This document shows, piece by piece, positions 12,950 to 16,273 of a DNA stretch of 64,000 nt. The DNA lies in assembly GCF_000568815.1 (NCBI RefSeq), contig NZ_CP007201.1:124001-188000 (forward strand), read 5' to 3'. The notes beneath the pieces are model-generated. The model worked only from the letters and a program-made list of their open reading frames with translations, did no database searches and was not told the DNA's origin. Both the position numbers and the translations under genes were made by a program. Origin of the DNA: Sulfurospirillum multivorans DSM 12446. Its GTDB lineage: Bacteria > Campylobacterota > Campylobacteria > Campylobacterales > Sulfurospirillaceae. Each line of letters begins with the position of its first letter. Within the stretch, counting starts at the first letter, position 1.

Positions 12950-14317
12950 CTAAGGTTGGACATCACTTTTTTTAGGATAGATAAAAATCGTATGTCGTTC
13001 TACAATGATGGTCTCTTTTGCATCAACGGCAAAGGCTTTCACCGTAATAGGAAGATCCTCGCCTTCGACTTTAAGCTCTTTAGGCACAGAAACGAGAATC
13101 ACAACTTTTTTGACTTTTTCACCCGCTTTGAGTAAAAAAGGCTCGCTTGGTTTCTCTATTTTTATATCATTATTGGAAATGTCAAAATAATAAAGATGGT
13201 CTTTTGAATCCGTATTTTGAAACAAGAAGGTATAGACATTTTCAACAGTTTTACCATCGTCTGCCATTTTGTAAAGTTGGCTGGTACGGTTAATATTTAA
13301 GAGCATATACTCTTTTTGCGTTCCCATAGCAAAAAGTCCGATAAGCGCAATACTTAGCGCCACCATATAGGCAATGGTTCTAAAGCGGAAATATTGTGTT
13401 TTAACACCTTTTTCTGCCGCATTATAGCTTGTCCATGTGATCAGAGACGTTTTACCTAATTTTTCCATCACTGGAGTACACGCATCCGCACACTCTAAAC
13501 AGTTGATACACTCTAATTGCATACCTTTACGAATATCAATATGCGTTGGACAGACGCGAACACATGCTTCGCACCCTGTACAGTCATCGGTTGCCAAAGG
13601 AGGTTTGCTTCCGAGTTTGTGACCTTTTTCATCGTAAATCTTTCCACCACGCTTTTCATCATAAATGGTTTGGATGGTATTTTCATCAAAGAGTGCGGAT
13701 TGAATACGTGCATAAGGGCAAATATAGACACAAAAATTTTCTTTAAGCGTAACAACATCGTACACTAAAAAAGCAGTGATACCTATCAAAAAGCCATACA
13801 TAATGCTATTATCAAGAGGGTTTTGAAGGTAAACAAAAAAGTCTTCTGGTGGAATAAAATACCACAAGAAGTTCGATGCTGCGAGCAATGCTAAACAGGC
13901 CCAAATGACCACTGCTACAAAGCGTTTTAGTATTTGACCCTCGGGCTCTTTTTGTTTATTATGAATATTTTTTCGGATTCCTAGGAGTTGTGTCTGGATG
14001 AGATCGCGAAAAATAACTCTGAAAATGGTTTGGGGACATGACCAGCCGCACCAAACTCTACCACCAAGGGTGGTGATAAAAAAGATGCCTAAGAAAAAGA
14101 GCATGATAACAAAAGGCATTAAATAAAGTTCTTGCATATCAAAAGCAGTAAAAAAAAGATTTAACTGTTTTTTGTCAAAACTCAGTAAAAAAAAGTGTTT
14201 CCCCTCTATGGTAATAAATGGCAAAATCAGTGCAATAAGTGTAATGATGCCAAAAACAACATAGCGTTTTATCCTATAATAGATTGGTTGTGTTGAACAA
14301 TCGCTATTACAATTCAT
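12950..14317 (-). CDS. ccoG: Cytochrome oxidase accessory protein CcoG (RdxA/FixG)
   Basis: CcoG is a membrane ferredoxin-like protein that reduces copper for cbb3-type oxidase assembly. The 455-residue protein has N-terminal membrane helices, CGWSCPQTIF near residue 90, a [4Fe-4S] ferredoxin motif CTGCEACVRVCP near residue 248 and CINCLECADACTPVM near residue 270, then a further helix near residue 317 and a periplasmic Ig-like C-terminus. Its start overlaps the stop of the recombinase-like gene by 11 bp, so both should come from one transcript. In C. jejuni the homologue also neighbours rpsU. Confidence 0.93.
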   Translation of the reverse strand: MNCNSDCSTQPIYYRIKRYVVFGIITLIALILPFITIEGKHFFLLSFDKKQLNLFFTAFDMQELYLMPFVIMLFFLGIFFITTLGGRVWCGWSCPQTIFRVIFRDLIQTQLLGIRKNIHNKQKEPEGQILKRFVAVVIWACLALLAASNFLWYFIPPEDFFVYLQNPLDNSIMYGFLIGITAFLVYDVVTLKENFCVYICPYARIQSALFDENTIQTIYDEKRGGKIYDEKGHKLGSKPPLATDDCTGCEACVRVCPTHIDIRKGMQLECINCLECADACTPVMEKLGKTSLITWTSYNAAEKGVKTQYFRFRTIAYMVALSIALIGLFAMGTQKEYMLLNINRTSQLYKMADDGKTVENVYTFLFQNTDSKDHLYYFDISNNDIKIEKPSEPFLLKAGEKVKKVVILVSVPKELKVEGEDLPITVKAFAVDAKETIIVERHTIFIYPKKSDVQP

Positions 14318-15005: not shown

Positions 15006-15050
15006 AAAAATGTCACCTTTTTATCATTTATATAAACGAAAGTATACAGA

Positions 15051-15095
15051 TATTGACGTAGAAAGTCAATATAAAATTGAATTTCTACGTCAATA
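15051..15095. promoter_or_regulatory. Nested palindromic operator upstream of the recombinase-like gene/ccoG operon
   Basis: Outer 14-bp arms TATTGACGTAGAAA (15051-15064) and TTTCTACGTCAATA (15082-15095) form a perfect inverted repeat. Inside it, ATTGAC (15052) and GTCAAT (15065) make one 6-7-6 dyad, and ATTGAA (15076) with GTCAAT (15089) makes a second, their starts 24 bp apart. This looks like two adjacent protein-binding dyads arranged symmetrically. It lies 46 bp upstream of the recombinase-like start and about 110 bp before rpsU. The cognate protein is inferred to be the recombinase-like regulator. Confidence 0.75.
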
Positions 15096-15207
15096 TTCAT
15101 AATAATATAGTATTAGTATAAAAGTAATAAGTTGTTTTAAGCTTACATGTAAAAAGAGTTGGCTAAAATGCAACCCTAAATTCATCCAGAAAGGTGGTGG
15201 ATAGAGT

Positions 15208-15420
15208 ATGCCAGGAATTAAAGTACATCCTAACGATTCGTTTGACGAAGCGTATAGAAAGTTTAAAAAACAAGTTGATCGTAACCTAGTTGTAACCGAA
15301 GTGCGTGCAAGACGTTTCTATGAAACAGCAACCGAAAAACGCAAAAAAGATAAAATTAGTGCGCGCAAAAAACAGTTGAAAAGACTTTATATGCTTCGCC
15401 GTTACGAGTCGAGACTCTAA
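15208..15420 (+). CDS. rpsU: 30S ribosomal protein S21
   Basis: A 70-residue basic protein with [20 protein letters not shown] and the arginine/lysine-rich tail [17 protein letters not shown] typical of S21. A strong AAGGTGGTG ribosome-binding site precedes the start. It is divergent from the recombinase-like/ccoG operon. Confidence 0.95.
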
Positions 15421-15553: not shown

Positions 15554-16273
15554 ATGGATAAAAAACTAACCGTTATTGAGGCGGCAAAGCTTTTAGGCGT
15601 GAGTAAAGAGGCTATCTACAATCGTTTGCGAAGAGGGTCGTTACAAAGCGTTGTTGAAAATGGAGTAAAGTACATTTTACTAACAAAAAATAGTCTCAAA
15701 GAAGGAACGCCTGCGCGCAAAATCCAGAGTCCTACCGAGAGTGCTTATGTTGAGCTTCTTAAACTACAGCTTGAAGAGATGAAGCTTAAAAACGAGAAGC
15801 TAGAAGGAGATAAAGAGCGACTGATTGCCGATAAAGAGCGTTTATTAATCGAATCCAAAGAAAAAATCGAGATGATCTATAAAGAGAGAGATGAACAGCT
15901 CAAAGCCATTCTTACGTTAGCCAATCGCCAAATCGTGCATGCTCCCATAAATGAAACCGTCACAGCGGCTAACGCATCTACGACAGATGCTTCTATGCCA
16001 AAGAGTCCTAGTGAAGACACTTTTTCTTTCGAAGAGGCGGATGTCTTAGATGAAGAGGAAGAGGGTGGTGTTTTGGAAAATAGGTTTGAGGCATACAGTG
16101 ACTGGAGAGATTTGCGCAGTTATCTTAAGGAAAAAGGATTTTCTAAAAAAGAAAAACAGTATATTAGCGATAAAGTAGGTAAAAAAGTAGGTCAGCTGAA
16201 TGATGTGATGGATAAAAATGGCAAACTTTTTATCAAAAAAGGAAAAAAGCTTAAAGAGATATTGGGAGAATAA
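15554..16273 (+). CDS. Excisionase/MerR-like DNA-binding protein with coiled coil
   Basis: The first 55 residues form a helix-turn-helix of the excisionase/MerR type (TVIEAAKLLGVSKEAIYNRLRRG plus a wing). Residues 68-125 are a charged coiled coil (many E/K repeats). Residues 150-180 are acidic, and the basic C-terminus (from about residue 190) carries YLKEKGFSKKEKQYISDKVGKK. The architecture suggests a DNA-binding protein that oligomerises; target and role are unknown. It is followed at 4 bp by the UPF0323 lipoprotein, so they are likely co-transcribed. Confidence 0.75.
   Translation: MDKKLTVIEAAKLLGVSKEAIYNRLRRGSLQSVVENGVKYILLTKNSLKEGTPARKIQSPTESAYVELLKLQLEEMKLKNEKLEGDKERLIADKERLLIESKEKIEMIYKERDEQLKAILTLANRQIVHAPINETVTAANASTTDASMPKSPSEDTFSFEEADVLDEEEEGGVLENRFEAYSDWRDLRSYLKEKGFSKKEKQYISDKVGKKVGQLNDVMDKNGKLFIKKGKKLKEILGE

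Follow-up and report, generated by a model that had tools for sequence, protein, structure and literature searches.

Between rpsU and a gene for a resolvase-like protein (here called reg), which is followed by the cbb3 oxidase assembly gene ccoG, the Sulfurospirillum multivorans genome carries an inverted repeat of unusual regularity; the question it raises is what binds there, and what such binding might control. A first, sequence-only reading took it for a nested palindromic operator through which the resolvase-like protein would switch itself and ccoG. On the comparisons below it is very probably the operator of the adjacent reg gene, whose product would be a transcription factor domesticated from a serine recombinase. 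Positions refer to the window, the whole 64,000-nt stretch that was analysed; the features discussed are collected in Table 1.

Table 1. Features of the rpsU-reg-ccoG locus, with window positions and strands
Feature	Position	Strand	Remarks
Inverted repeat of the sequence-only reading	15050..15096		21-nt arms 15050-15070/15076-15096, 5-nt centre
reg promoter, -10 box TATACT	15041..15046	-	78 of 80 loci have one at 17 or 18 bp from TTGACT
reg promoter, -35 box TTGACT	15064..15069	-	near-constant spacing to -10 and to both half-sites
Promoter-proximal half-site	15054..15064	-	TGACGTAGAAA on + strand, TTTCTACGTCA in reg sense
Distal half-site	15082..15092	-	TGACGTAGAAA in reg sense, upstream of -35; inverted relative to the proximal half-site
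reg, proposed regulator, 232 aa	14307..15005	-	degenerate serine recombinase: resolvase fold and Hin-type DNA-binding domain
ccoG (cbb3 oxidase assembly, cupric reductase)	12950..14317	-	Pfam Fer4_18 6.6e-43, FixG_C 1.4e-17
rpsU	15208..15420	+	divergent neighbour; adjoins in own family and in G412; not the operator's constant partner

The repeat was originally described as two 6-7-6 dyads with starts 24 bp apart, and both are present (15052-15070, ATTGACGTAGAAAGTCAAT, and 15076-15094, ATTGAATTTCTACGTCAAT); the perfect 14-bp inverted repeat in which they were said to be arranged is borne out as the perfect outer 14 bp of each arm, the full arms being complementary at 20 of 21 positions (95%). 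Their regularity is indeed unusual: nowhere else in the 64-kb window do 21-nt arms pair at 20 or more positions across a gap of no more than 10, and 30 Markov-shuffled versions of the window, like 20 twelve-kb shuffles with intergenic composition, contain no comparable repeat. The dyad is real, beyond chance. Its placement was also read correctly: roughly 45 bp separate the start codon of the 232-aa gene from the site's edge (46 bp had been given), and this gene overlaps ccoG, by 11 nt.

The 6-7-6 dyad is not, however, the functional unit, since a genome-wide search for ATTGAC-N7-GTCAAT gave no regulon: in the window's genome (G000, one contig of 3,175,729 bp) the exact pattern has a single occurrence in 3.18 Mb, and one-mismatch matches are scattered. 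A pair pattern, TTGACG-N24..34-CGTCAA, finds the window site and one dissimilar other. What is conserved of the dyad is limited to TGACG ... AGTCAA ... CGTCA (window strand), blocks which the intergenic alignment of the window's family shows at constant mutual distances. On the reg strand AGTCAA reads TTGACT, 17 bp (in some cases 18) ahead of TATACT or TATAAT; the window promoter has TTGACT, a 17-bp spacer, and TATACT. The inner dyads come from half-sites lying next to this -35 box. In the first dyad the inner GTCAAT is mostly the box itself, and the ATTGAA of the second is not conserved.

The operator is a pair of inverted half-sites, TGACGAWAAA/TTTWTCGTCA, spanning 38-40 bp end to end, with the TGACG core outermost and the A-tract facing inward towards the centre. 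In the window the outer span is 15054-15092, or 39 bp; measured automatically, 69 of 80 loci fall within 38-40 bp. The CGTCA core of the proximal half-site falls within the -35/-10 spacer, starting 11 bp past the start of the -35 box at nearly every one of the 80 loci examined. This candidate binding site overlaps reg's own promoter, as is typical of TnpR-like autoregulators. In three families extra TGACG half-sites continue upstream, spaced by 20-21 bp in 16 of 17 measured intervals. Of the nested palindromic operator, then, the predicted operator at the reg-ccoG promoter survives, with a single half-site pair around the -35 box as its unit, rather than two dyads.

Some neighbouring features were noted as well. 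The reg leader (15011-15026, TGTCACCTTTTTATCA; TGATAAAAAGGTGACA in reg sense) is unusually conserved family-wide, beyond what a ribosome-binding site would account for; in several genera it is GTGACAAAAAGGTGACA, a direct repeat that is half-site-like. Before rpsU in Sulfurospirillum (15137-15152) there is a conserved TTAAGCTTACATGTAA block with the palindrome TTACATGTAA, distinct from the operator and, in the family's other genera, kept in part (TTAAGCTTA). Downstream of rpsU (15554-16273) is a gene for a protein of 239 aa that has an HTH_17-like stretch at its N terminus and a middle part resembling a coiled coil.

A protein profile search turned up reg homologues across the order, strong ones (profile E below 1e-30) in 153 of 397 genomes. 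In the window's family (f1; f-numbers denote family-level groups of genomes) the protein is present in 41 of 44 genomes, and nearly all loci read preserve the order rpsU-reg-ccoG. In seven other families ccoG is directly downstream of reg, on the same strand, in 40 of 40 fetched loci; upstream of reg in these, mostly without rpsU, come TGACGAWAAA, then TTGACTTTWTCGTCA, then TATAAT. An f13 genome (G412, L271) also has rpsU-reg-ccoG, with TTGATTTTTTTCGTCA and a -10 but with a distal half-site, TAACG, that is weaker; this suggests that the order's ancestral arrangement was of this kind. Among genomes of f8, f10, and f13 the weak homologues proved to be active recombinases or resolvase-like proteins of another sort, and those whose loci were read do not lie beside ccoG. 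The f8 genomes (L126-L134) also have a second conserved resolvase-like protein without a catalytic serine (YVRKNQNN or similar), located away from ccoG in the loci fetched.

The sequence-only reading would have been undermined by relatives that keep the reg-ccoG pair without the dyads; the check was run and did not refute it. A strict operator pattern, TGRCG-N16..19-TKGACWT-N4-CRYCA, which matches the window operator (G000:C1:139054-139092), was found in 113 of the 153 genomes with strong reg vs none of the 244 without it. The site thus occurs only where the protein does, as for a TnpR-like autoregulator, and a reversed control pattern had almost no matches. The strict pattern is missing in 40 of the 153, some of which hold diverged sites (e.g., TAGACG in own-family genome g4). 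Among 50 site-bearing genomes left out of motif derivation, 49 have the operator 37-102 bp upstream of reg and on its strand. Some secondary matches of the pattern or of the site model (G000:C1:1425512, G022:C1:2620214, and G182:C1:729898), in GC-rich or coding-like sequence, were taken as chance.

Most genomes with the operator have a single copy, which lies at the reg promoter. Applied to the window's own genome, a sequence-only model of the site (R1) has one significant place, at 2.7e-9 vs 0.04 for the next elsewhere; the model includes the window site, so that only the gap to the next match is informative. The arms change together in some lineages (TGGCG/CGCCA, TAGACG/CGTCTA), with covariation between columns 3 and 41 (p 0.0025) and columns 5 and 39 (p 0.02) against column shuffles that ignore relatedness; this is statistically weak because the core is nearly invariant.

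Natural losses point the same way. G043 has a broken reg, and its operator is gone. In G037, which has no reg, ccoG retains a TTGACTT...TATACT promoter and the distal TAGACG, while the proximal CGTC is lost. In two f10 genomes rpsU adjoins ccoG without reg, and the operator is absent there too. A contrary case is G041, an incomplete assembly with a split reg and an intact operator; the split may reflect a sequencing error or a recent loss. In G059 reg stands apart from ccoG and the strict site is away from reg, which is itself preceded by a weaker operator-like pair (TGACGATAAA ... TTTCGTCA). The earlier proposal of an operator for the resolvase-like protein, with predicted control of itself and ccoG, is strongly supported by this comparison, both by the 113 of 153 against 0 of 244 and by decay on loss of reg.

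Other lineages have second sites, with proper promoters, before a Pyr_redox_2 flavoprotein resembling sulfide:quinone reductase (SQR; G164, G287, G385, G347, and G081). Second sites are also found before Nitro_FeMo-Co-type proteins (G362, G272, G059), before short relatives of these without a Pfam match (G011, G042), and before a small ORF followed by an M48 peptidase (G155, G112, G058, G173, G135). In G059 (L146, 1501-3043) the gene behind a strong operator encodes a Nitro_FeMo-Co-like protein whose tail is rich in Cys and His, and a cydA-like gene comes next. Target names are from Pfam or from reading the translations, SQR and cydA being assigned by resemblance. A second site was sought in the window's genome and none found, the window operator being its only significant site. 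As a description of the whole order, the dedicated copper/oxygen-respiration switch of the sequence-only reading is too narrow, since in other lineages the site also precedes these further genes.

As to mechanism, reg is most likely an autoregulator of reg-ccoG, and probably a repressor. A reg dimer (or a higher oligomer, where there are extra half-sites at 20-bp steps) would bridge both half-sites, cover the -35 box, and shut off transcription of reg and ccoG, giving negative autoregulation; a signal would then release reg from the operator and restore transcription. Repression is proposed because the proximal core is in the promoter spacer and the -35 box would be covered. Control of ccoG together with reg, via their common promoter, is expected because the promoter is shared and the genes overlap. 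The 39-bp span to be bridged is longer than hix or res site I in their simple form.

Instead of repressing, the protein may activate from the distal half-site or act in both ways. In its explicit form, which we consider unlikely, reg would bind the operator but activate, the distal half-site at about -60 recruiting RNA polymerase while the proximal one distorts the promoter in a MerR-like manner. The distal half-site and the extra ones upstream at 20-bp steps do sit at activator positions, and the proximal core is located in the spacer. However, the -35 and -10 boxes are near consensus with a normal 17/18-bp spacer, so that an activator is not needed, and G037, without reg, keeps its promoter boxes while a half-site decays.

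A considerably less probable alternative is that the operator belongs to another transcription factor (e.g., CRP/FNR, Fur, or a two-component regulator), with the resolvase-like protein a bystander. Palindromic operators of this kind are common to many families, but the strict site is confined to genomes with reg, it decays when reg is lost, and there is mostly one per genome, at the reg promoter. The half-site layout also fits a Hin-type domain, with outer core and inner A-tract.

The reg protein itself resembles a serine recombinase in its fold and in its Hin-like DNA-binding domain. Pfam recognizes a Resolvase domain (PF00239, 2.7e-7) and HTH_7 (PF02796, 5.3e-5, just under its cut-off), and a PHROGs search gave DNA invertase as its only clear match. 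The best PDB matches of the AlphaFold model (pLDDT 82.7, pTM 0.58) by Foldseek are a gamma-delta:Hin chimaera and Tn3 resolvase, with Sin and TP901-1 also found; a PDB sequence search returned mainly designed repeat proteins and was uninformative. The protein thus has the resolvase N-terminal fold followed by an HTH DNA-binding domain that characterizes small serine recombinases, but lacks their nucleophilic serine and catalytic arginines: equivalents of Ser10, Arg68, and Arg71 are found in 0 of 56 reg homologues, vs all three in six active relatives from the same order. The Arg8 position is Lys in the window's reg; the alignment used for catalytic residues is one residue off around Arg45. Near-invariant are a GRPKG-S-SKSKFD segment, the recognition-helix region VSR-SLKDYI-SR, and two cysteines, C87 and C215. 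With these next to a cupric-reductase gene, one might guess at a copper, thiol, or redox signal.

It is extremely improbable that an active resolvase or invertase still recombines DNA at the repeat: the protein is homologous to DNA invertases of the Mpi type (34 of 34 family members match the NCBIfam Mpi model, PRK13413, NF009949, below its cut-off), but the catalytic residues are missing throughout, there is a single significant site in the genome, and gene order is constant across the order. As little likelihood attaches to a role in RNA (hairpin, attenuator, or terminator) or to a dyad formed by chance from overlapping promoter parts, even with the inner dyad partly a -35 box, since the site is upstream of the -10, and so outside the reg transcript, its half-sites and span are conserved in many families, and shuffles gave no comparable repeat.

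If this reading holds, reg would show clearly how a recombinase of mobile elements can become a transcription factor of the chromosome, and its history could be followed, along with that of its operator and target, over at least nine family-level groups. More tentatively, and with rather less confidence, it might represent an undescribed order-wide family of one-component regulators derived from a dead serine recombinase, sensing copper, thiol, or redox state through the two near-invariant cysteines and setting respiratory copper and sulfide handling; its targets would be ccoG nearly everywhere and, in some lineages, the SQR-like flavoprotein, the Nitro_FeMo-Co proteins, and the M48 peptidase. 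In the open-access literature we found no dead recombinase acting as a regulator, and none at ccoG.

CcoG serves cbb3 assembly as a cupric reductase; in Campylobacter jejuni its gene (cj0369c) is separate from the other assembly genes, and no regulator is named (PMC8267372). No resolvase-like regulator features in a review of how respiration is regulated in Campylobacterota (PMC6682613). What regulation of ccoG and cbb3 elsewhere shares with the proposed reg system is that genes for cbb3 assembly are controlled; reg would be the first candidate regulator of this assembly in the order, the literature found naming none.

The nearest parallel in action is Tn3 TnpR, which represses tnpR and tnpA from res (PMC7157771). 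TnpR at res, like the D protein of mini-F, shares the serine resolvase fold with reg, and its inverted half-sites overlap its own promoter, which it binds and represses; the layout at reg is alike, with binding predicted. Site II of Tn3 res has a long AT-rich spacer between its half-sites, resembling the long span of the reg operator, and in a published model a resolvase dimer can bridge half-sites an extra AT-rich turn apart (PMC9943657). TnpR is, however, an active recombinase on a mobile element, whereas reg is chromosomal, has no catalytic residues, and keeps a constant gene order; the co-regulated gene, ccoG, also differs. Among curated families Mpi (NF009949) is the closest to reg. Like the Hin, Gin, and Mpi invertases, reg has a GRPKG minor-groove motif and an HTH, and half-sites with outer core and inner A-tract; unlike them, it has no catalytic serine and no invertible segment, and its half-sites extend over 38-40 bp end to end, the hix layout being 26 bp.
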